The position numbers and the translations under genes are program-made. A DNA stretch of 42,163 bases from Calditrichota bacterium (GTDB lineage: Bacteria > Calditrichota > Calditrichia > JAJRVZ01): positions 1 to 42,163 of the forward strand of contig JAJRVZ010000247.1 in NCBI GenBank assembly GCA_024277055.1, given 5' to 3'. Positions 4,780 to 42,163 of this stretch are shown piece after piece. The notes below the pieces were generated by a model that did no database searches, had not been told where the DNA came from, and worked only from the letters and a program-made list of their open reading frames with translations. Every line of letters begins with the position of its first letter. Position 1 is the stretch's first letter.

Positions 4780-6738
4780 TTGAAAAAGTCTGCTTTAGTT
4801 ATAAAACTGCTGATAATTTTCCTGCTGCTGTTATCTGCTGCAGCCGTTGCGCAGGAAAAAGAAAAGCCAAAAAAAAAGAGACGGGTTCCAAAAAAGCCGA
4901 AAAAAGAACAGGTGATCCAGGCGCCCGAAGATACCACACAATCTCTATTTGCTACACCGGAAACGCTTAAAACCCAGGCCATCAATTCCGCCGTTTACTG
5001 GTACGATTCCTCAAACCGCATGCACGCGCGCGGGGAAAAAAGCGAGGCTCCGCTTTTTCATCGTTCAGATGAAAAACTGATAAATTATATGGACATGAGC
5101 GACATCTTCCGCACGCAACCCATGTGGCAAGTATTCCATTTTAAAGAAAGGGGCAGACCGGCATATATCGCACCGGTCAATCGCTACCCGCAACAGGCCG
5201 GATTTTTTTTCGGTTCGGTTTTAATGAATGACCTTACCCACGGCATGTACAACAGCCAGCATATTCCACTTAATTTTATTCGAAATATTGAAAGCAGTAT
5301 CGCCGTCGGACAGATGCAGAACCTGGGAATGGGTTCGGCCGCGAGTATATATGTAACGCCGGACAGCCGGCACACGAAAGCCTCGTGGACACGGATAGTG
5401 TACAAACAGGGCAATTTCGGTTATTCGGACCTGGATATTTCCTTTGTTCAGCCTGTCAGTGAATCCTTTGCCGTGCAGCTCGGCGGCATTAACAGCCTGT
5501 ACGACGGCAGCATTCAGGGCGGGAACGCCCAGCATCAGAATTACCGCGGGGAAGTAACCTGGCAATACAATCCGCAATTCTATGTACGCGGTCAGTTCTT
5601 TTTAAACCGGGTTCGTGCCGGCATGACCGCTCTTGACTTTCCGCAGGAAATTGCTTTTCCGCGCCACGTTGAATTGCGGGATGATTATTTTATTGATGCT
5701 ACCTGGATACAAAACGATTCCACCGGGCAACGCGTACATGCTGTTCTTTTTAACAATTATGTTTCCCGCCGATTCAGGGATTCCGGCTCTCCTTACCGCG
5801 TTTATACCAAACAGAAGAAGTGGGGAGCGGATGTCAATTATAACCTGTTTCTAGGAAAAAATGAAATTCTTGTGGGGGCCGGAGCCATCGTGCCGCGTAT
5901 TAACGGAGTGGCATATAAAAAATCACACTATCCGACGGCGGCCAATGCCTACCTGCAACTGCGGATTCCGTTTCTTTCACAAATCGAACTGACAACGCGG
6001 GCACAGCTTGATCTGCACCGTCTGTTTAATCCGCAGCTTTCGACATCGCTGATAGCCGATGTCAAGCCGGCGGAAAATCACGAACTGAAGCTTTCCGCTG
6101 GCCGCAGCGTACGGTTCCCGGTCGTCAACGAACTGTTTTTCAGTTTTGATTCCCTTTTCGGCAATAGCCTGTTAACGCCCGAAGAACATATTTCATTCGC
6201 CGGAGAATACCGAATCGATAACGGTTGGTGGAGTGTCGAAATGAAAGGACAGTATACGCGCATCAACAACGAAATCATTTGGGACAGCACCCGTTTCGTC
6301 AACCGCTTTGAAACCCGGGATTTTGCCGCTTTCGGAATAGCTGCCAACATTCAATTATGGAAATTCCGTCTCGCAGCAGGGGGGCACTATCTGTTCGCTG
6401 ATGAGTATCTCACGCCGCGCAGCAGTGCACATATACAATTGCGTTTCAACGATGTCTGGTTGAAAGGTGCTTTAAAAGTTGACGCAGTTGCCGGCATCTA
6501 CTACTACGACCGCCACACGGCCATAAACTACGAACCGCGTCTGGAACGCTTTTATCCGGGGAAAGACATTACAACCGCCTACAGCATCTTCAATTGGAAA
6601 ATTGTAGGCACAGTACAAACTGCCAGGATTTTCTTTGAAATGGATAATCAGTTTGCCGAAGAATATGAGATAATTAACGGCTACGGAGAACTGTTCCAGC
6701 GCTGGCGGTTCGGGGTAAACTGGGTTCTCTGGGACTGA
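4780..6738 (+). CDS. Outer-membrane beta-barrel protein, TonB-receptor-like
   Basis: A 652-aa predicted outer-membrane barrel. I chose the TTG start because only it gives a full signal peptide (residues ~1-24, ending AAAVAQ). The mature N-terminus is strikingly basic (KPKKKRRVPKKPKK). Residues ~110-215 resemble a diverged TonB-receptor plug: a short helix (DIFRTQPMW), a loop with a promoted NDLTHGMYN, then IPLNFIRNIESSIAVGQ and a GSAASIYV segment. The rest consists of alternating aromatic/hydrophobic strands with charged turns, ending in WRFGVNWVLWD, as expected for barrel strands. It is shorter than typical TonB receptors (over 700 aa) and I see no TonB box or carboxypeptidase-like domain. 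It could be a porin or a reduced receptor; substrate unknown. Its stop codon abuts the stop of the convergent ogt gene with no spacing. Confidence 0.75.
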   Translation: MKKSALVIKLLIIFLLLLSAAAVAQEKEKPKKKRRVPKKPKKEQVIQAPEDTTQSLFATPETLKTQAINSAVYWYDSSNRMHARGEKSEAPLFHRSDEKLINYMDMSDIFRTQPMWQVFHFKERGRPAYIAPVNRYPQQAGFFFGSVLMNDLTHGMYNSQHIPLNFIRNIESSIAVGQMQNLGMGSAASIYVTPDSRHTKASWTRIVYKQGNFGYSDLDISFVQPVSESFAVQLGGINSLYDGSIQGGNAQHQNYRGEVTWQYNPQFYVRGQFFLNRVRAGMTALDFPQEIAFPRHVELRDDYFIDATWIQNDSTGQRVHAVLFNNYVSRRFRDSGSPYRVYTKQKKWGADVNYNLFLGKNEILVGAGAIVPRINGVAYKKSHYPTAANAYLQLRIPFLSQIELTTRAQLDLHRLFNPQLSTSLIADVKPAENHELKLSAGRSVRFPVVNELFFSFDSLFGNSLLTPEEHISFAGEYRIDNGWWSVEMKGQYTRINNEIIWDSTRFVNRFETRDFAAFGIAANIQLWKFRLAAGGHYLFADEYLTPRSSAHIQLRFNDVWLKGALKVDAVAGIYYYDRHTAINYEPRLERFYPGKDITTAYSIFNWKIVGTVQTARIFFEMDNQFAEEYEIINGYGELFQRWRFGVNWVLWD

Positions 6739-7245
6739 TCAGGGGAACAGGGTGCAGCCCTCATGGGATAGCAGCCATCTTTTTACTTCAATTCCACCGC
6801 CATAACCGGTCAGGTTGCCGTTGCTGCCAATGACCCGGTGGCAGGGCACAATGATTGAGATCGGATTACTGCCGTTGGCCAGTCCCACGGCACGACTCAG
6901 TTTTCTTCCCCCCAGCTTTTCGGCGATCCGGCCGTAGGTACATGTCTGCCCAAAGGGAATCTGAAGCAACCGCCGCCACACCTGTATCTGAAAATCAGTG
7001 CCCTGTAAATCCAGCGGAACCGTGAAATCCCTGTTCGTACCCTCAAAATAGGCTTTGATTTCCCCGGTTGCCGTTTTCAATTCTGCGGCGGGAAACTTAT
7101 CTGGTATTTGACCGAATTTACTTTTGAACCAGTGGAAAAAAGCATTGTCATTCGAGTGAAACGTGAGGCTGCACAGCCCCTTTTCGGAAGCGGCCAGGTA
7201 CAGCCGCTTTCCGAAGGGAGCCGTAAAATGATGGTAATTATACAT
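6739..7245 (-). CDS. ogt: Methylated-DNA-[protein]-cysteine S-methyltransferase
   Basis: Suicide DNA-repair protein that transfers the alkyl group from O6-alkylguanine to its own cysteine. The 168-aa length fits the Ogt/MGMT family. The active-site motif VPCHRVIG is complete (acceptor Cys135), preceded by the helix-turn-helix region with the arginine finger (LSRAVGLANGSNP) and followed by LTGYGGGIEVKRWLL. The N-terminal ribonuclease-like domain occupies about residues 1-75. It is the last gene of a minus-strand group: the DUF4920 lipoprotein gene ends 10 bp upstream and the two are probably co-transcribed. No Ada-type regulatory domain is fused to it. Confidence 0.96.
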   Translation of the reverse strand: MYNYHHFTAPFGKRLYLAASEKGLCSLTFHSNDNAFFHWFKSKFGQIPDKFPAAELKTATGEIKAYFEGTNRDFTVPLDLQGTDFQIQVWRRLLQIPFGQTCTYGRIAEKLGGRKLSRAVGLANGSNPISIIVPCHRVIGSNGNLTGYGGGIEVKRWLLSHEGCTLFP

Positions 7246-7255
7246 TGTTCGGCGA

Positions 7256-7732
7256 TCAGCTTTCGCTCTTTTCCTTTATAACAACCGAACTGGCCGTAAA
7301 AGAATAGGACGGCTTTTCTTCCTTAACTTCGGCGCCCTGTGCGGCCGTTTCTTCTTCAACATGTTTGTCGGTTTTCGTGCTGAAAATTCCCTGTACGGAA
7401 ACCAGGTTGCCGGCGCCGTCTTTTGGAACGAAAAAAGCATAATCTTTAAACCGTACGGTGATATCATATTCACCTTGTTTCAGTTTCAGCCAGCATCCCT
7501 TTTTCTGGCAAACATCGATTATCTGCCCGTCCAGCCGAACTTCTTTGCCTTCGTACTGTTCCGGGTGCTGGTACAGTTCCGCCAGCGACGTTGCGGCGTT
7601 CATTGTCATTTCCGCACCGTAGGTTTTTACACTGGTCTCGGTTTTCTGCTGTGTTTCCTCCTTTTTTCCACAGGAAAATACCAGCAGAACCGTCAGAATG
7701 AATACACTTGCTGTCATCCATTTTGATTTCAT
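7256..7732 (-). CDS. DUF4920 family lipoprotein
   Basis: A 158-aa predicted lipoprotein. The signal peptide ends in a lipobox-like VFSC with lipidation at Cys21, followed by a charged linker (GKKEETQQK). Residues ~40-130 match the DUF4920 pattern, a small OB-like fold. The motifs are YEGKEVRLDGQI, VCQKKGCW, VRFKDYAFFVPKD and VSVQGIF. The function of DUF4920 is not established. The paired Cys in VCQKKGCW could bind a metal, but that is only a possibility. The start codon overlaps the stop of the upstream PepSY-like gene (ATGA) and has an AAAGGAG ribosome site within that gene, so translation of the two is probably coupled. Confidence 0.87.
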   Translation of the reverse strand: MKSKWMTASVFILTVLLVFSCGKKEETQQKTETSVKTYGAEMTMNAATSLAELYQHPEQYEGKEVRLDGQIIDVCQKKGCWLKLKQGEYDITVRFKDYAFFVPKDGAGNLVSVQGIFSTKTDKHVEEETAAQGAEVKEEKPSYSFTASSVVIKEKSES

Positions 7733-8142
7733 TTTGTACTCCTTTTTTTAAATTTTGGATTTAAGATAAAAAACATATAAATGCCCGTGACCGACAAAAC
7801 GATCAGGGCCGCGGCGATAAAATCGTAATAATATACGGCATATTCTCCGAAAAAGATACCGGCATGCAGGTCGTACACGACCCATGAAAGGGGAACACTG
7901 CCGCTGTCGTCTTTATAAAGCCCGAGCGTTCCCTGTTGCTTGCGGATTTCGATCAGGCGCTGCTGATAACTGTCCGGCAGCCAGGCGGTACTGATGCGCA
8001 TACGATCCATAAATGAAAAGTCATTTTTATGCTCCAGTAAAATTCCGGTCGCAGAAATAATGATAATAACCAGTGCCGAAAGGGTACTGAGCCAGCGCCA
8101 GTAGCCGAAAGCAAAAATATGAACTTTACGCCATTTTTTCAT
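7729..8142 (-). CDS. PepSY-associated transmembrane-type protein
   Basis: A small inner-membrane protein. I start it at the internal Met (MKKWRKVHIFAFGYW, 137 aa) because the 43 residues upstream in the open frame look non-coding, and this start puts the usual Lys/Arg-His N-terminus directly before the first membrane helix. TM1 is about residues 18-40 (LSALVIIIISATGILLEH), and TM2 about 108-130 (FIAAALIVLSVTGIYMFF). Between them is an extracytoplasmic segment with the WVVYDLHAGIFFG stretch. The SATGI/SVTGIY repeats and the DLHAGIFFG motif are characteristic of PepSY-associated TM proteins. These often accompany membrane redox or metal-uptake proteins, but no such partner is seen here. It overlaps the downstream lipoprotein gene by 4 bp. 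Confidence 0.78.
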   Translation of the reverse strand: MKKWRKVHIFAFGYWRWLSTLSALVIIIISATGILLEHKNDFSFMDRMRISTAWLPDSYQQRLIEIRKQQGTLGLYKDDSGSVPLSWVVYDLHAGIFFGEYAVYYYDFIAAALIVLSVTGIYMFFILNPKFKKRSTK

Positions 8143-8268
8143 CGTGTATAAATTCCCGGTGGTCAGCAAATTAAAGTCAAAAGACTTAGCCTTTGCAGAT
8201 TTCAAAATCAATAGGTAAAAAAAGGGAACTCTGCATTTGGGAAATTTGAAATTTTTTACTATTTTTTC

Positions 8269-8309
8269 CATACTTACCCGACTCGAAGAAAATAAACATA
8301 CTTGCCCGA
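8269..8309. promoter_or_regulatory. Pair of 13-bp direct repeats upstream of nadC
   Basis: CATACTTACCCGA (8269-8281) and CATACTTGCCCGA (8297-8309) differ at one position and start 28 bp apart, in the 216-bp divergent gap between the PepSY-like gene and nadC. The second copy ends 50 bp before the nadC start. This arrangement fits a binding site for a dimeric regulator or a tandem operator. No NAD-responsive regulator is encoded in the window, so the assignment is inference. Confidence 0.4.
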
Positions 8310-8358
8310 TTTTATTGAAACAAAGTAAATGTGCGATTGAAGGGCGGAAACGAAATAA

Positions 8359-9195
8359 ATGGATAAGTCGTTACATGATATAATCGAACGAGCCTTACTG
8401 GAAGACATCGGGCGCGGAGATATTACTACGGACGCGACCATCGATCAGGGGCGGCGGGGCAGCGCCAGAATAATTGCCAAACAGGAGGCGGTTATTGCCG
8501 GGATGGTTGTTGCCGACCAGGTTTTCAGAAATATTGACGGTCAGCTACGAATTAAAAAGAATTTCATGCCGGGTGACCGGGTTACAGCCGGTACGGTGGT
8601 TATGAACCTTTCCGGCCGTGTCGCCTCGATGCTGAAGGCTGAAAGAGTGGCACTGAATTTCCTGGGGCATTTGTCAGGCGTAGCCACACTAACCGCTTAT
8701 TTCGTAAAGCTGATCAAAGGAACCAAAGCGAAAATAACCGACACACGCAAAACCATGCCCCTGCTGCGCGTAATGGAAAAAGAGGCCGTTGTTGCAGGCG
8801 GCGGCGTGAACCATCGCATGGGTTTGTACGACCTGGTGCTGATCAAACAAAACCATATCCGCGCAGCCGGCAGCATCAAAAAAGCCGTTGAACAGACCAG
8901 GCATTTCATGATTCAAACCGGGATTTCCGCCAAAGTTGAAGTGGAGGCGTCAGAACTGAAGGATGTAAAAGACGCCCTGTTGTCAGGGGTTGACCGTATC
9001 ATGCTGACCAACATGGATACGGTACAAATGCATGCAGCGGTAAAACTAATCGACGGTGCAGCGGAAGTGGTGGCGACCGGCGAGGTGCATAGCAAAAACA
9101 TACGCGAAATCGCCGAAACCGGTGTTGATTATATTTCCGTCGACTCCATTACCAATTCGGTACCTTCAATGGAGTTTTCACTTTTGATCGATTGA
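8359..9195 (+). CDS. nadC: Nicotinate-nucleotide pyrophosphorylase (carboxylating)
   Basis: Quinolinate phosphoribosyltransferase converts quinolinate and PRPP to nicotinate mononucleotide, releasing CO2 and pyrophosphate, in de novo NAD synthesis. The 278-aa length is standard. Family signatures are intact: LLEDIGRGDITTDATI at the N-terminus, AERVALNFLGHLSGVAT, TRKTMPLLRVMEKEAVVAGGG, HRMGLYDLVLIKQNHI, and VEVEASELKDV in the barrel. The ATG start has an AGGGCGG box about 11 bp upstream. nadA and nadB are not in the window, but nadD, which acts later in the same pathway, lies about 29 kb downstream. A direct-repeat pair precedes the gene. Confidence 0.97.
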   Translation: MDKSLHDIIERALLEDIGRGDITTDATIDQGRRGSARIIAKQEAVIAGMVVADQVFRNIDGQLRIKKNFMPGDRVTAGTVVMNLSGRVASMLKAERVALNFLGHLSGVATLTAYFVKLIKGTKAKITDTRKTMPLLRVMEKEAVVAGGGVNHRMGLYDLVLIKQNHIRAAGSIKKAVEQTRHFMIQTGISAKVEVEASELKDVKDALLSGVDRIMLTNMDTVQMHAAVKLIDGAAEVVATGEVHSKNIREIAETGVDYISVDSITNSVPSMEFSLLID

Positions 9196-9250
9196 TCTGC
9201 AACTTTCCCGCACGAATTCTGTACTACAATAAAAACACCGGGGATAATAA

Positions 9251-9445
9251 ATGAACGATAAACCGCTGTGGGAAGATATTGTTGAATTTGCACGTAAAAA
9301 GAAGTGGCTGGCTGCAGCACTGATAATTATCGGCTTATTCGGCCTTATTGTACCTGTTATACCCGGTTTACTGCTGATCGGTGTCGCGGTTTTTCTGCTG
9401 AAGCCCGAATGGTGGGATCGATTAAAAAAAAAGGTAGGCATGTAA
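9251..9445 (+). CDS. Small membrane protein, PGPGW-like
   Basis: A 64-aa protein with an amphipathic, charged N-terminus (WEDIVEFARKKKW), a hydrophobic hairpin (~19-50) containing GLIVPVIPGLLLIG, and a basic C-terminus (WWDRLKKKVGM). The G-x-x-x-P-V-I-P-G-x-x-L-I pattern resembles the small PGPGW/DUF454-like transmembrane families, whose roles are unknown. The ATG has a GGGGATA ribosome site. It follows nadC by 55 bp on the same strand and ends 3 bp before the convergent mutase gene. I judge it a real gene on the ribosome site and clear membrane topology. Confidence 0.75.
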   Translation: MNDKPLWEDIVEFARKKKWLAAALIIIGLFGLIVPVIPGLLLIGVAVFLLKPEWWDRLKKKVGM

Positions 9446-9448
9446 CAG

Positions 9449-11101
9449 CTATACGCCGCCTTCGGTGTACTCGCCGAATACTTCACGTAGTTTCCCGGCA
9501 ATTTCGCCCAGTGTGGCGTAGACCTCCACACAGTCAATAATTGCCGGCATCAGGTTTTCGGTTCCTGCAGCTACGCGGGCAAGTGCTGCAAGTTTTTCCG
9601 ATACTTTTTCATTGTCCCGTTCCTGTTTCAGCTGTTTAACCCGCCGGACCTGACGCTCCGTCATTTGCTGATCAATCTTCAGTATATCGGCGGGCGGTTT
9701 CTCCTCGGCCTGATACTTGTTTACCCCGACAATCGTTTTGTCACCGTCTTCAATGGCCTTTTGATAGTTGTAAGCGGAGCGTGTGATTTCATCCTGGTAA
9801 AATCCCTTTTTGATTGCTTCAATGGAGCCGCCCATTTTATCGATAGTGTCGATATATTCCTTCGCACGTTGTTCGATCTCATCGGTTAGTTTTTCGATAA
9901 AGTAGGATCCGGCCAGCGGATCAACGGTATCGGCGGCCCCGCTTTCATGGGCGATGATCTGCTGAGTGCGAAGGGCAACCTGCACCGACTCCTCTGTCGG
10001 CAGCGCCAGCGCTTCATCGAAGGAGTTGGTATGCAGCGATTGCGTACCTCCCAGTACCGCTGCCAGCGCCTGCAGCGTAACCCTTACGATATTGTTTTGC
10101 GGTTGCTGTGCGGTAAGGGTACTGCCCCCGGTCTGGGTGTGAAAACGCAGCAACATGGATTTCACTTTTTTTGCCCCGAAACGCTCTTTCATGATGTGGG
10201 CCCACATGCGCCGTGCCGCCCGGTATTTGGCCACTTCTTCGAACAGGTTATTATGAGCGTTGAAGAAAAACGACAGGCGGGATGCAAAATCATCGACATC
10301 CAATCCCGCATCGATGGCGGCTTCAACGTAGGCAATGGCATTGGAGAGGGTGAAGGCGACTTCCTGAACGGCATCGGAACCGGCTTCGCGGATGTGATAG
10401 CCGGAAATTGAAATCGTGTTCCAGCGCGGAAGGTATTCATTGCAGTATTTAAATATATCGGTGATGATGCGCATGGAAGCATCGGGCGGAAAAATATAGG
10501 TACCCCGGGCGATATACTCTTTCAGGATATCATTTTGAATGGTGCCGCTCAGTTTTTCATCCGCTACCCCTTGCTTGCGGGCGATGGCGATGTACATGGC
10601 CAGCAGAATCGATGCCGTAGAATTAATCGTCATTGATGTGCTGACTTTATCCAGCGGGATGCCGTCCAGCAGGATTTCCATATCCTGCAGCGACGAAATG
10701 GGTACACCGACTTTACCGACTTCGCCCTCGGCCAGCGGGTGGTCGGAATCATACCCGATCTGGGTGGGCAGGTCGAAAGCGACCGAGAGTCCGGTTGTGC
10801 CGCTGTTCAGCAGGTATTTGTAACGAGCATTGGAATCTTCCGCGGTGGCAAATCCGGCGTACTGACGCATGGTCCAGAATTTGCCGCGGTACATGGTCGG
10901 TTGCACCCCCCGCGTGAAAGGAAATTCTCCGGGGAATCCCAGTTTTTGTTCATAATTAAATTCTTCTTCGGCGATGTATAAACGATCGATGGGTATGCCG
11001 GCATCGGTGGAAAAGGTCTTTCTGCGTTCGGGAAAGCGTTCGATTGTATTTTTTACCGTGGATTGTTCCCAGGATTTTTTTCTGGATTTCAGATCAGACA
11101 T
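9449..11101 (-). CDS. mcmA1: Methylmalonyl-CoA mutase, catalytic (large) subunit
   Basis: Adenosylcobalamin-dependent isomerase interconverting methylmalonyl-CoA and succinyl-CoA. The 550-aa product is only the catalytic TIM-barrel part; the B12-binding domain is missing and must come from a separate gene outside the window. I start at the internal ATG ([11 protein letters not shown]) because it has an AAAAGGGGA ribosome site. Motifs: [71 protein letters not shown] and [10 protein letters not shown]. Tyr in RQYAGF and Arg in SMRIITD correspond to the pair (Tyr89/Arg207) that marks methylmalonyl-CoA specificity; isobutyryl-CoA mutases have Phe/Gln. It is the third gene of a minus-strand operon after the biotin carboxylase and biotin carrier. 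Confidence 0.94.
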
Positions 11102-37091: not shown

Positions 37092-37874
37092 ATGATGCGA
37101 TATTTGAAACTATTATTGTTTGCAGTTACAGCCATTACGTTACTCAGCAGTTGTTCGGGAGTGAAACCGCAACCGGACTGGACGGCGGAAGAATACTATA
37201 AATATGCCAAAGCCAAGTTTGACGATGAAAATTATCTGGAAGCGGTCAACGATTTTACGGTAGTTGTGCTGCGGTTTGCCGGCAGTTCGGTTGCCGACAG
37301 CGCCCAGTTCTACCTGGCATATTGCCATTATAATATGGATGAATACATCATTGCTGCCGCGGAATTCGGTAAGATTGTCACGGATATGCCGCAGAGTCCT
37401 CTGGTACCGATGAGCCAGTACATGCTGGCCGAAAGCTACTATCAGATGTCGCCCCGTGCGGAGCTGGACCAAGAATACACCCTGAAGGCCCTGAAACAGT
37501 TTCAGATTTTTCTTGAAGATTATCCGACCCACGAGAAGAAAGAGGAAGTTGAAAAAAAGATACTGGAATTACGTAATAAACTGGCGGAAAAGCAGCTGCG
37601 CAATGCCGATATCTATCGTCTCATGCGCCGATACAAAGCCGCTCTGATCTACTACGACATTGTGCTGAGTAAGTATTACGACAGTGATTATGCCGATGAT
37701 GCACAATACGGCAAAGCCCTGACCTATTACGAAAAAGAGGACTGGTTGAACGCGAAAGAGCAACTGTTGATTTTCAAAGAAAAATTTCCGGATTCGGAAT
37801 ATCTTTCGGCGGTTGAGGAAATGCTTCGGGAGGTGATGAATATTCCCGATGTCGAAATGCGTGCATCCAATTAA
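37092..37874 (+). CDS. bamD: Outer-membrane protein assembly factor BamD-like lipoprotein
   Basis: Lipoprotein of the BAM complex that inserts beta-barrel proteins into the outer membrane. The 260-aa protein has a signal peptide with a lipobox-like LLSSC (Cys21). TPR-like helices follow: EEYYKYAKAKFDDENYLEAVNDFTVVVLRFAGS, AQFYLAYCHYNMDEYIIAAAEFGKIV, and further repeats to ~250. The spacing and the early YYKYAKAKFD motif match BamD/YfiO. Lies 8 bp after the unknown membrane protein gene. BamA is not in the window. Confidence 0.9.
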   Translation: MMRYLKLLLFAVTAITLLSSCSGVKPQPDWTAEEYYKYAKAKFDDENYLEAVNDFTVVVLRFAGSSVADSAQFYLAYCHYNMDEYIIAAAEFGKIVTDMPQSPLVPMSQYMLAESYYQMSPRAELDQEYTLKALKQFQIFLEDYPTHEKKEEVEKKILELRNKLAEKQLRNADIYRLMRRYKAALIYYDIVLSKYYDSDYADDAQYGKALTYYEKEDWLNAKEQLLIFKEKFPDSEYLSAVEEMLREVMNIPDVEMRASN

Positions 37875-37915: not shown

Positions 37916-38503
37916 ATGCAAAAAATAGGATTGTACGGCGGTACATTTGATCCCATTCACATCGGTCACCTGCTGCTGGCCGAGTGGGCCCAGCAGGACC
38001 TTGGTCTGGACCGCGTTTATTTTATCCCCGCTTCCATCCATGCTTTCAAAAGAAACGGTGAACTCAGCGACAGTAAACTGCGTTTCAGACTGGTACAAAC
38101 CGCGATAAGAGATTTTCCCGGATTTTCCGTGAGTCGTATCGAACTGGACCGGGACGGCATATCCTACGCGGTCGATACGGTAACAGACTTTCGCCGCTAC
38201 GAACAGGTGGAAGGAGCTGATTTGTATTACCTGATGGGTATGGATAATCTGAAGGATTTTCACCGCTGGAAACAACCGGATGAAATTATGAAACAGGCAC
38301 AAATAACCGTATTCGCCCGTCCCGGCTATGAGCAGCAGGAAATTCATGAACGCTACAAAGATTCGGTTCTGTTTCTTAATTCCCCGGTACTTGATCTCTC
38401 CGCTTCGGGGATTCGCAGCCGCATCGCCGCCGGAAAAAGTGTGCGAGGTATGGTGACGCCCGCCGTGTATGAAATTATCAATGCAATGAATCTTTATCGT
38501 TAA
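37916..38503 (+). CDS. nadD: Nicotinate-nucleotide adenylyltransferase
   Basis: Adenylylates nicotinate mononucleotide to deamido-NAD in NAD synthesis, the same pathway as nadC in this window. The 195-aa length is typical. The nucleotidyltransferase motif GLYGGTFDPIHIGHLLLAE includes the (T/H)xGH signature; YLMGMDNLKDFHRWKQPDEI and the C-terminal LDLSASGIRSRIAAGKSVRGMVTPAVYEII with the ISxTxxR-like segment complete it. It is the last gene of the run from ruvX, 41 bp after bamD. Downstream lies the remnant tail and the BMC locus. Confidence 0.95.
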   Translation: MQKIGLYGGTFDPIHIGHLLLAEWAQQDLGLDRVYFIPASIHAFKRNGELSDSKLRFRLVQTAIRDFPGFSVSRIELDRDGISYAVDTVTDFRRYEQVEGADLYYLMGMDNLKDFHRWKQPDEIMKQAQITVFARPGYEQQEIHERYKDSVLFLNSPVLDLSASGIRSRIAAGKSVRGMVTPAVYEIINAMNLYR

Positions 38504-38855: not shown

Positions 38856-39158
38856 TTGTTTTTAGGAAAAGTGATCGGGACGGTCTGGGCCACAAAAAAA
38901 TCCGATACCTGCGCCAACCTGCGCTTTCTCGTCGTTCATCCCCTTAATCTCAAAAAGGCGCCGTCCACCGATGTAGTGATCTGTGCCGACACGCTGGGCG
39001 CCGGTCCCGGCGAAACGGTGATCTGCGCTTACGGACACGCCGCACGCAAGGCCATTCACCCGGACGCCCCGGCGGAACTCAGCATCGAAGCGGCGGTTAT
39101 CGGTATCGTCGACCGCGTGGATATCGACGAGGACGCCTCGGACGGCAAAATAACATGA
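38856..39158 (+). CDS. eutN: BMC vertex protein, EutN/CcmL/PduN family
   Basis: Pentameric shell protein that caps the vertices of bacterial microcompartments. I start at TTG 38856 (100 aa; MFLGKVIGTVWATKKSD) because CGGAG lies 7 bp upstream and the conserved family start is Met-x-x-G-x-V-x-G-T-V-W-A-T. The track's ATG at 38820 adds 12 unlike residues. Family features: LRFLVVHPLNLKK, VVICADTLGAGPGETVICAYGHAAR and the C-terminal AAVIGIVDRVDI. It overlaps the PduS-like gene by 4 bp (ATGA), indicating coupled translation. One vertex gene is seen; hexameric shell proteins (BMC-H) are not present in the window and must be encoded further to the right or elsewhere. Confidence 0.9.
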   Translation: MFLGKVIGTVWATKKSDTCANLRFLVVHPLNLKKAPSTDVVICADTLGAGPGETVICAYGHAARKAIHPDAPAELSIEAAVIGIVDRVDIDEDASDGKIT

Positions 39159-40465
39159 TTGATAGAATACGCAACGGGGGGGTTGTCGGTGCGGGAGGGG
39201 CCGGTTTTCCAACGCATATCAAACTGGATAATAAAGTTGATACGGTCATCGCCAATGGTGTGGAATGCGAACCGTTGCTGGCTAACGATAAATACCTGAT
39301 GACGCATCATGCCCGGGATATTATCGAAGGTCTGCTTCTGGCTCAACAGCAGACGGGGGCTGATCGGGCCGTTTTGGCCATTAAGGAAAAATATACCGCA
39401 GTAGAAGATAAACTCGAAGTTATTCTGCAGGAAGTCGGCGTCGATCTTTTTCTGATGCCCGATTATTATCCCGCCGGGGATGAACTGGAGATCATTTACG
39501 AAGTTACGAACCGCATCGTTCCGGCCGGCGGAATACCGGTGCAGGCAGGGGTGCTGGTACAGAACGTGGAAACACTGTTCAACAGTGCCCGCGCAGTGAA
39601 CGATGAACCGGTTACTCACCGCTTTTTAACCGTAAACGGGGCGGTGGAGGAGGGCGCTGTTGTACGTGCACCGATCGGCATCTCCTGCCGTGAAGTGCTG
39701 AATCAATTGTATCCCGGCAAGAGTTTTGATGGTTTGACCGTCACCACCGGCGGCGTGATGATGGGCGCCATCCACCGCGATTTTGATTTTCCGGTTACGA
39801 AAACCACGGGGGCGTTGCTGCTGCTGCCGGAGCATCACACCGTCGTGCTGCAGAAAAGCAGGCGCATTCGCAACGTCGTGCAGCAGGCCATGGCGTACTG
39901 TACTCAGTGCACCAAATGCAGCGATGCCTGTCCGCGCGATATGTTGGGACACACGGTAAAACCCCATCTGTCCATGCGCCGCGTGGCTAGTGGACTGAAT
40001 TACGAGGGGCAACCGTCCATCAACGCCTATGCCTGTTCGGAATGCGGCATCTGCGACCTGTACGCCTGTCCCATGGGATTGTACCCCCGGCGCGTCAACC
40101 GGGAACTGAAAGAAATAATGCGCGGGCAGGACGTACCGTTCGAAATCCAGCAAAAAGAATACCGTGTGCATCCGCTGCGAGAGAGCGCAAAGATTCCTTC
40201 CTACAATCTGAAAAAGAAATTGCAGTTACTGGATTATGACCGGGAAGTAACCCGTTTCGAAGATCTGAAAGCAAAAGAAGTTACCATTCCGCTGAAACAG
40301 CATATCGGTGCAGCGGCCAAATGTGTGGTAAAAGCCGGACAGAAAGTTGAAAAAGGTGAAAGGATTGGCGAAATTCGGGAAAATGAAATCGGCTCTACCA
40401 TTCATGCGTCCATCAGCGGCAGGGTGAAAGAGATTACGGGGGCTGCAGTACGGATTGTGGCATAG
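39155..40465 (+). CDS. pduS: PduS-like BMC electron-transfer flavoprotein (SLBB, Fe-S)
   Basis: A RnfC-related protein that in propanediol compartments reduces cobalamin and is thought to move electrons across the shell. The 436-aa length is close to PduS. The N-terminal flavin/NADH-binding region has GGVVGAGGAGFPTHIKL (from about residue 6) and VECEPLLANDKYLMTHH. An SLBB-like region follows (~150-230, VNGAVEEGAVVRAPIGISCREVL). Two [4Fe-4S] motifs are intact: CTQCTKCSDAC (Cys249/252/255/259) and CSECGICDLYAC (Cys294/297/300/305). The C-terminal barrel-sandwich domain (~350-436) is as in RnfC. Start ATG overlaps eutN. The PduT-like shell protein is 58 bp downstream. Whether the electron partner is cobalamin cannot be shown here. 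Confidence 0.92.
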   Translation: MIDRIRNGGVVGAGGAGFPTHIKLDNKVDTVIANGVECEPLLANDKYLMTHHARDIIEGLLLAQQQTGADRAVLAIKEKYTAVEDKLEVILQEVGVDLFLMPDYYPAGDELEIIYEVTNRIVPAGGIPVQAGVLVQNVETLFNSARAVNDEPVTHRFLTVNGAVEEGAVVRAPIGISCREVLNQLYPGKSFDGLTVTTGGVMMGAIHRDFDFPVTKTTGALLLLPEHHTVVLQKSRRIRNVVQQAMAYCTQCTKCSDACPRDMLGHTVKPHLSMRRVASGLNYEGQPSINAYACSECGICDLYACPMGLYPRRVNRELKEIMRGQDVPFEIQQKEYRVHPLRESAKIPSYNLKKKLQLLDYDREVTRFEDLKAKEVTIPLKQHIGAAAKCVVKAGQKVEKGERIGEIRENEIGSTIHASISGRVKEITGAAVRIVA

Positions 40466-40523: not shown

Positions 40524-41069
40524 ATGCAGGCAATAGGATTACTGGAATACAACAGCATCGCCGCGGGAATCGAAGCGACCGATGAAATGATGAAAGCGGC
40601 ACAGGTGGACCTGCTGTTTGCCAAAGTGGTTTGTCCGGGAAAGTTTATCGGGCTGGTTGCCGGTGAAGTGGCTGCCGTAAAAAGCAGTATAGATGCCGGA
40701 AAAAAAACGGGCGGTATGTACGTGGTTGATGAATTCGTGCTGCCCAATCCGCACCCGGAAATTATCCCGGCCATGAATGCGGCTACGGTCATTGAGCAAT
40801 ACCAGGCACTGGGTGTAATCGAAACTTTTTCCGTGGCTTCAACCATCGTTGCCAGCGACGCTGCGGCTAAAACCGGGCTGGTAAACCTGATTGAAGTACG
40901 CCTTGCGGTGGGCATGGGCGGAAAGTCTTTTGTAACCATGACCGGGGAAGTGGCTTCCGTGCGCTCGGCGGTGGAAGCCGGCAATGCGGAGGCGAGCAGC
41001 CGCGGATTCCTGGTAAAATCCGTCGTCATCCCGCACCCGACCCGCGAACTGATTGAAGGATTAGTGTAG
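40524..41069 (+). CDS. pduT: Tandem-BMC-domain shell protein, PduT-like (BMC-T)
   Basis: A trimer-forming microcompartment shell protein of 181 aa with two BMC domains. Domain 1 is ~2-85 (AIGLLEYNSIAAGIEATDEMMKAAQVDL, VVCPGKFIGLVAGEVAAV). Domain 2 is ~93-181 (YQALGVIETFSVASTIVASDAAAKTGLV, VGMGGKSFVTMTGEVASV). The match to PduT is strong in both halves, and its position directly after the PduS-like gene follows the Pdu partnership. However, PduT carries a [4Fe-4S] cluster ligated by a Cys (Cys134 in Salmonella) in the GGKCY segment; here the equivalent reads GGKSF, with Ser135. The pore is therefore unlikely to bind the cluster in the same way. GAGGAGAT ribosome site. Confidence 0.93.
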   Translation: MQAIGLLEYNSIAAGIEATDEMMKAAQVDLLFAKVVCPGKFIGLVAGEVAAVKSSIDAGKKTGGMYVVDEFVLPNPHPEIIPAMNAATVIEQYQALGVIETFSVASTIVASDAAAKTGLVNLIEVRLAVGMGGKSFVTMTGEVASVRSAVEAGNAEASSRGFLVKSVVIPHPTRELIEGLV

Positions 41070-41239: not shown

Positions 41240-41704
41240 ATGCCGGAACTATCAACCGAAAAAATCCGCGAGCTGGCCCGTGAGGCCGTTAAACAGCTGG
41301 GGCCGAAAGCCACGCCGGAGCTGGTGAATCGAGTAGTGCGCGAGGCCATGAAAAAGGTAAATGCAGAGCAGCAGCAACAGCCGGAAATTGACGAACACCA
41401 TCTTCCGAGTAATGAATCGCTGCGCGGCGGGGGTACCCGCATCATCGTAACCGCGTTCGGGAAAAACCACCCCGGAATATTGGCCGGAATTACCGGCGTG
41501 CTGGCCGATCATGACTGTGATATACTCGACCTGACACAGAAAATGCTGCAGGATTTCTTCACCATGATGCTGCTGGTTGACATCGGGAAGAGTTCCTGCA
41601 CCTTCGAAGAGCTGAAGCAGCGGATTATCGACCGCGGAGAAGAACTGGATCTGAAGGTCATCGTACAGCATGAAGAACTGTTTAACGCCATGCACCGGGT
41701 GTAG
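41240..41704 (+). CDS. ACT-domain (UPF0237) protein with BMC encapsulation-like N-terminus
   Basis: A 154-aa protein. Residues ~66-154 are a complete ACT domain of the UPF0237 type (RIIVTAFGKNHPGILAGITGVLADHDCDILDLTQ, DFFTMMLLVDI, LFNAMHRV), a family of about 90 aa normally encoded alone next to a UPF0210 gene, as here. The extra ~65 residues are unusual. Two short amphipathic helices, TEKIRELAREAVKQL (6-20) and PELVNRVVREAMKKV (26-40), are followed by a Gln-rich linker (NAEQQQQPEIDEHH). Such helices with a flexible linker are the hallmark of BMC encapsulation peptides. With shell genes directly upstream, this suggests the protein is directed to the compartment lumen. ATG with GAGG ribosome site. 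The enzymatic or regulatory function of the family is not established. Confidence 0.85.
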   Translation: MPELSTEKIRELAREAVKQLGPKATPELVNRVVREAMKKVNAEQQQQPEIDEHHLPSNESLRGGGTRIIVTAFGKNHPGILAGITGVLADHDCDILDLTQKMLQDFFTMMLLVDIGKSSCTFEELKQRIIDRGEELDLKVIVQHEELFNAMHRV

Positions 41705-41706
41705 CC

Positions 41707-42163
41707 ATGCCGTTTACCATTGAAGAAATTCTCGATACCATCCGCATGACCGAGGTGGAGCATTTTGACATTCGCACAACGACGCTCGGAATAAACCTCA
41801 AGGATTGTGTAAGTGACGATTTTAAAAAACTGCGCGCCAAGATTTACGATAAAGTATGCCGTGTCGCCGAAAAGCATGTAAAAGCAGCCGAGCAGGTGGA
41901 AATGGAATACGGTATTTACATTGCCAACAAGCGTATTTCAATCACCCCGCTGGCGCTGGTAGCCGATCACTGCTCGCAGAGCGAATTCGTCCGTCTGGCT
42001 GAAACGCTGGACGCCGCCGCCGATGAAGTCGGCGTGGATTTTCTGGCCGGGTTCAGTGCGCTGGTACAGAAGGGTTTCTCCAAAGGGGACCGGAATCTTA
42101 TCCGCGCAATTCCCGAAGCGCTGGCGGCAACCGAGCACATCTGTTCATCGGTAAACGTGGCCA
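41707..42163 (+). CDS. UPF0210 (DUF711) family protein, N-terminal part (cut by window edge)
   Basis: Open reading frame from ATG 41707 to the right edge (152 codons visible), absent from the supplied track because no stop is reached. The N-terminus is typical of UPF0210: EEILDTIRMTEVEHFDIRTTTLGINLKDC, IANKRISITPLALVADHC, AADEVGVDFLAGFSALVQKGFSKGD and HICSSVNVA. The full protein is normally about 450 aa with a fold related to pyruvate formate-lyase-like glycyl-radical enzymes but lacking the radical Gly motif in known members; that part lies outside the window. It begins 2 bp after the ACT gene stop, the usual ACT/UPF0210 pairing. Function unknown. No encapsulation-like extension is seen on this protein itself. 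Confidence 0.9.
   Translation, partial: MPFTIEEILDTIRMTEVEHFDIRTTTLGINLKDCVSDDFKKLRAKIYDKVCRVAEKHVKAAEQVEMEYGIYIANKRISITPLALVADHCSQSEFVRLAETLDAAADEVGVDFLAGFSALVQKGFSKGDRNLIRAIPEALAATEHICSSVNVA

Follow-up and report, generated by a model that had tools for sequence, protein, structure and literature searches.

The ACT protein encoded at the right end of the window (the whole 42,163-nucleotide stretch analysed here) has a genuine N-terminal extension of 65 residues laid out like an encapsulation peptide. We propose that this extended protein, ACTx, probably tethers its DUF711/UPF0210 partner inside a metabolosome, with DUF711 as a candidate signature enzyme. The proposal is based on the extension itself, its likeness to the tags of aldehyde dehydrogenases (AldDH), the linkage to EutN, the co-occurrence of ACTx and DUF711 with microcompartment (BMC) genes, and the description of the Caldithrix abyssi BMC as lacking a signature enzyme. 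That ACTx and DUF711 are BMC cargo, as an earlier note on this DNA had suggested, is supported: it is likely and well supported in silico. Targeting to the lumen and an enzymatic role there are what we infer from it, and a role for DUF711 as the signature enzyme is plausible.

The EutN-ACTx-DUF711 locus and the main BMC loci

The window is the whole of contig C192 in an assembly (G000) of 3.96 Mb, and the named relatives retrieved with its ACT protein belong to the phylum Calditrichota. The features of its right end are given in Table 1. The earlier note had read the EutN, PduS and PduT genes, upstream on the same strand, as shell genes. EutN and the PduT-like BMC-T protein are confirmed as such, the latter scoring 137.9 against TIGR02526, under the cut-off of 250.3; PduS was misassigned, being an electron-transfer flavoprotein/Fe-S protein. 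DUF711 is cut by the contig end, with 152 of about 454 residues present. The fragment passes the PF05167 cut-off (161.5 bits against 25), and no further piece of the gene was found elsewhere in the window's assembly. The best explanation of the window is that it holds part of a metabolosome gene set.

Table 1. Features at the right end of the window
Feature	Position	Strand	Evidence or remark
BamD	37092-37874	+	
NadD	37916-38503	+	
EutN/CcmL-type pentamer (BMC-P, shell vertex)	38856..39158	+	PF03319, E=4.6e-23; opens the conserved EutN-ACTx-DUF711 order of relatives
PduS-like NuoF/RnfC-type flavoprotein with 4Fe-4S clusters	39155..40465	+	PF01512, E=4e-40; RnfC_N; Fer4_17
PduT-like BMC-T shell protein, two BMC domains	40524..41069	+	PF00936, two stretches, E=1.3e-45
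ACTx, 154 aa	41240-41704	+	
ACTx residues 1-65, encapsulation-peptide-like N-terminal extension	41240..41434	+	AlphaFold2; conservation in 33 homologues; AldDH tag likeness
ACTx residues 67-154, UPF0237-type ACT domain	41438..41701	+	PF13740; NF001220 over cut-off; 1zpv fold match
DUF711/UPF0210, first 152 residues	41707..42162	+	PF05167 positions 1-140 of 413, E=3.7e-47

The check proposed earlier, that DUF711 should lie close to shell genes in related genomes, is borne out: the order EutN-ACTx-DUF711 is kept in 19 of 19 loci of other Calditrichota, often with BamD-NadD upstream. Compared with these 19 loci, only the window has PduS-PduT between EutN and ACTx; in relatives these two genes lie in a separate main BMC locus or in a third locus. 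A CN_hydrolase gene (nitrilase superfamily) follows DUF711 in all 17 loci uncut by a contig end. It lies at 8650-9522 of locus L035, recurs at the corresponding place in 16 further Calditrichota loci, and may encode an enzyme of the same pathway.

The BMC-H, AldDH and phosphotransacylase (PTAC) genes of Calditrichota carriers lie outside this locus. The main BMC locus of carriers contains AldDH, PTAC, BMC-H, PduS and BMC-T; no credible EutN was found in the 7 main loci tested, and the main loci that were read show no further candidate for a signature enzyme. The order in the presumed C. abyssi genome (G004) is extended BMC-H, ParA-like ATPase, EutQ-like 109-aa protein, PTAC, two BMC-H, AldDH with an N-terminal tag, EutJ-like protein, PduS and BMC-T. 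The first three of these stand in a row at 7472-9106 of locus L075 (G004, contig C1). By analogy, the ParA-like ATPase may position compartments, for which carboxysome McdA is the comparison.

The window's own genome has shell genes of the BMC-P, BMC-T and BMC-H kinds, with EutN and BMC-T in the window and two further BMC domains on contig C261. The latter belong to two BMC-H genes (locus L026, 4989-8482), the second with a C-terminal extension, and their neighbours encode a VWA-domain protein and an AAA+ ATPase, not enzymes. The only AldDH seen in this genome is an acetylating one on contig C117, away from the shell genes, whereas the main-locus AldDH of relatives is tagged. It is found at 5331-7565 of locus L185 (TIGR02518, over cut-off), ends in a linker and a short helix-like, tag-like C-terminal tail, and is followed by a 218-aa protein. 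We considered that protein as a PTAC and rejected it for want of Pfam, NCBIfam or PDB support; no PTAC was identified in the loci of this genome that were read. The C117 region is a candidate for the BMC core of this genome.

The N-terminal extension of ACTx

At 154 residues, ACTx departs from the unextended norm of about 90 residues for ACT/UPF0237 proteins, a norm that the earlier note had given and that agrees with the 91 residues of 1zpv and the 90-position model NF001220. The ACT domain is placed at residues 67-142 by Pfam (PF13740, E=7.8e-15) and at 67-154 by NCBIfam (NF001220, 93.6 bits, over the cut-off of 74), so that residues 1-65 are extra, as had been claimed. The closest solved homologue, 1zpv from S. 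pneumoniae, is unextended, and its alignment covers only residues 66-153 of ACTx. The AlphaFold2 model, built from 34 sequences, predicts helices at residues 6-23 and 26-45 (mean pLDDT 88-93 over residues 11-40), a stretch with pLDDT below 50 at residues 46-58, and then the ACT fold, for which the top structural match is again 1zpv. The arrangement described in the earlier note, two helices and a Gln-rich linker (NAEQQQQPE) ahead of the ACT domain, is present and agrees with the model.

The extension is common to 33 aligned ACTx homologues. The mean majority frequency per column is 0.57 in helix 1, 0.41 in helix 2, 0.21 in the linker and 0.64 in the ACT domain; within helix 1, L20 is invariant and R10 nearly invariant across phyla. 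The ATG start codon is preceded at 5 bases by GAGG, and an in-frame stop lies 9 codons upstream. A start-site error as the source of the extension is ruled out by the upstream stop, the ribosome-binding-like site and the conservation in homologues. The 65-residue extension is therefore confirmed as genuine.

The layout of encapsulation peptides in the literature matches the extension except for the second helix (PMC12339742, PMC11157265). A terminal amphipathic helix of about 15-20 residues is present in ACTx, as the two predicted helices, and so is a flexible, poorly conserved linker, as the stretch of low pLDDT and low column conservation. The hydrophobic moments of the helices are near the 90th percentile and by themselves do not distinguish the extension. 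We searched the 1120 ORFs of the collected loci with a profile derived solely from the extension; its top match after the ACTx proteins was a main-BMC-locus protein with a EutQ-like orthologue, though the E-value of 0.03 is weak. When this profile was used to rank the 1084 non-ACTx ORFs by their first 30 residues, the N-termini of 11 BMC aldehyde dehydrogenases came out well ahead of the remainder, with an AUC of 0.991 (p=8.5e-9) and 10 of the 11 within the top 17. None of 100 column-shuffled profiles reached this AUC (mean 0.76, maximum 0.98). Against the cargo reading, the reversed profile gave a nearly equal AUC of 0.97, which means that the likeness to AldDH tags lies largely in an amphipathic pattern and not in exact sequence. 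With that qualification, the claim of an encapsulation-peptide layout holds.

These features raise the alternative that the extension is a hairpin for binding DUF711 or for dimerisation in a cytosolic complex, its association with BMCs being due to shared ancestry and chance gene order. The conservation of helix 1 across phyla goes beyond what is usual for tags, part of the resemblance to AldDH tags is generic amphipathy, and the carriers sampled in one class form a single clade (see below), all of which would suit a hairpin. It is nevertheless quite improbable: adjacency to EutN is conserved in 19 loci, PduS-PduT is inserted into the same cluster in the window, 1zpv does without the extension, and carriers without shell genes are nearly absent in three lineages.

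Distribution of ACTx, DUF711 and BMC genes

Extended ACT proteins were found in 20 Calditrichota genomes, 19 of which have PF00936 genes. Across the 40 genomes of the Calditrichota set, which are mostly incomplete MAGs, 19 have both ACTx and PF00936, 1 has ACTx only, 10 have BMC genes only and 10 have neither (p=0.003, ignoring kinship). For ACTx and the C. abyssi-type AldDH, 16 genomes have both, 4 ACTx only, 2 AldDH only and 18 neither (p=1.7e-5, again ignoring kinship).

The exception is G034, a MAG that is 98% complete and has ACTx, DUF711 and four EutN genes with no PF00936 gene, which counts against the cargo reading. It lends itself to another explanation, in which EutN is a free-standing cytosolic pentamer working with ACTx and DUF711 rather than a shell vertex. 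We regard this as very improbable indeed, since BMC-H or BMC-T genes occur in 19 of the 20 ACTx-bearing Calditrichota, the window's genome has its two BMC domains on C261 as well as the BMC-T gene, and G034, as a MAG, may have lost a single cluster in assembly. The sole ACTx-bearing Calditrichota genome without PF00936 also has, at 5979-8529 of locus L193 (G079, contig C107), a EutN gene with genes for a deoxyribose-phosphate aldolase (TIGR00126, tag-like N-terminus) and a pyrimidine nucleoside phosphorylase. The group resembles a portion of a satellite locus of the sugar-phosphate (SPU-like) kind.

Outside Calditrichota, ACTx occurs in 19 genomes whose names place them in Ignavibacteria, Chlorobia or allied groups, and all matches reach into the extension. 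PF00936 is found in 18 of these and EutN in 18, each carrier having at least one of both; G077 has EutN without PF00936. Most carriers from Ignavibacteria and Chlorobia have three or more EutN copies. That EutN might be unrelated to BMCs is ruled out, nearly all carriers having PF00936 genes. Five carriers in which no DUF711 had been seen next to ACTx were checked, and in all five it lies elsewhere in the genome. Counting against the cargo reading, no recognised shell gene was found beside the ACTx-DUF711 pair in carriers outside Calditrichota.

We also surveyed 294 genomes from the class to which G061, a Melioribacteraceae MAG, belongs. ACTx occurs in 46 of them, DUF711 in the same 46 and in G291, and PF00936 in 124. 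All 47 DUF711 carriers are BMC-positive, and none of the 170 BMC-free genomes has ACTx or DUF711 (Fisher p=5e-21, a value that overstates the evidence because the carriers form essentially one clade). That clade appears in a RecA tree of 90 genomes of the class, including 10 DUF711 carriers, with a sister group that is mostly BMC-positive. With just 2 changes of DUF711 label on the tree, we abandoned a count of independent gains and losses; the class amounts to one or two independent contrasts, added to those of Calditrichota and Chlorobia. The 77 BMC-positive genomes without DUF711 count against the cargo and signature reading. The earlier note had also named the extension in BMC-free genomes as a check. 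It was not found there in the sets searched: every carrier in Calditrichota and outside has PF00936, EutN or both, and the 170 BMC-free genomes of the class have none.

DUF711 as a candidate signature enzyme

Aligned with 2ha9 (SP0239), full-length DUF711 proteins of relatives match over the whole length (E=2.6e-155). No tag-like extension was seen on them, their lengths being 453-455 residues against 446 for 2ha9. Across 19 aligned sequences there is little or no variation at cysteines 34, 146, 185 and 364 (numbered as in G004) or at a C-terminal RGG. The ten-stranded barrel of DUF711 is also that of ribonucleotide reductase and pyruvate formate-lyase (PMC4390871). Judged by titles and abstracts, none of the papers found that name UPF0210 concerned its function; the one that names DUF711 dealt with ribonucleotide reductase evolution (PMC4390871). 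No earlier link between UPF0210/DUF711 and microcompartments was found in the open-access main texts searched.

DUF711 is also present in control genomes of organisms without BMC genes, so its reaction does not require a compartment, and the simplest history is that an older ACT-DUF711 pair was recruited into the compartment by tagging of the ACT protein. The same distribution would fit a more modest role, in which ACTx and DUF711 are BMC cargo but serve an ancillary part (regulation, or the handling of a cofactor or side product) while the aldehyde is made by some other enzyme, for instance a tagged aldolase, whose gene lies elsewhere. According to Sutter et al. (PMC8217296), a main BMC can acquire further functions from satellite loci, and carrier G079/G034 has its deoxyribose-phosphate aldolase with a tag-like N-terminus beside a EutN gene. 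This role seems unlikely: the tagged aldolase occurs in one carrier only, the main loci read offer no competing signature enzyme, and none is reported for C. abyssi in the main text of PMC4207490.

We favour DUF711 as the candidate signature enzyme, and the proposed mechanism is as follows. Two amphipathic helices, forming an encapsulation-peptide module, would have been added to the N-terminus of an ACT subunit. ACTx would bind the untagged DUF711 and carry it into a shell built from BMC-P, BMC-T and BMC-H proteins. The ACT domain would respond to a small molecule, which is probably an amino acid or a metabolite related to one, and adjust the activity of DUF711. As the first or dedicated enzyme of the compartment, DUF711 would deliver an aldehyde or acyl product to the shared core of acylating AldDH, PTAC and PduS/PduT electron transfer. 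Binding of ACT to DUF711, lumen targeting, allostery and aldehyde supply are steps that we infer. In its fullest form the proposal would make DUF711 the signature enzyme of a family of metabolosomes, as yet unassigned, in Calditrichota, Ignavibacteria and Chlorobia, drawn into the shell by its tagged ACT partner and producing the aldehyde for the core AldDH; we put this forward tentatively, as possible.

Several microcompartment types of uncultured phyla lack an assigned signature enzyme, and UPF0210/DUF711 is a widespread protein of solved structure to which no reaction has been assigned. Should DUF711 be cargo, each of these gaps would help to narrow the other, and its product should suit the co-encoded AldDH and PTAC. 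Tagging a regulatory ACT subunit instead of an enzyme would be an unusual way of loading a compartment. The cultured relative C. abyssi is a possible test organism.

The nearest known system is in the same phylum. Axen et al. (2014) described in C. abyssi a locus with AldDH, a pta-type PTAC and PduS and with no apparent signature enzyme, a metabolosome with an incomplete core (MIC); the presumed C. abyssi main locus has these three genes as described, and the main text of that report makes no mention of a EutN-ACTx-DUF711 locus, a tagged ACT protein or a candidate signature enzyme (PMC4207490). FRAG BMCs, which occur in Ignavibacteriae and related phyla and are defined by FRAG-clade shell proteins with a BMC-P triplet, are similar in the dispersal of their shell genes among several loci, in multiple EutN copies and in mostly having no known enzyme nearby; the part of the article consulted does not name DUF711 or a tagged ACT protein (Sutter et al. 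2021, PMC8217296). In glycyl-radical-enzyme microcompartments (GRM), the PFL-type enzymes share the ten-stranded barrel superfamily with DUF711 (PMC4390871), but DUF711 is a separate family, and the loci read yielded neither a PFL glycyl-radical domain nor an activase. By profile and fold, the window's ACT domain and DUF711 are ordinary members of the families of 1zpv (SP0238-type, ACT/UPF0237) and 2ha9 (SP0239), to which the Calditrichota pair adds the 65-residue extension and the link to BMC genes. What is plausibly new here is a metabolosome in which a regulatory subunit bears the tag and for which there is a new candidate signature enzyme. Compared with the encapsulation peptides of metabolosome cargo such as PduP, PduD and AldDH, ACTx has two helices in tandem, and they are borne by the regulatory ACT subunit rather than by an enzyme.
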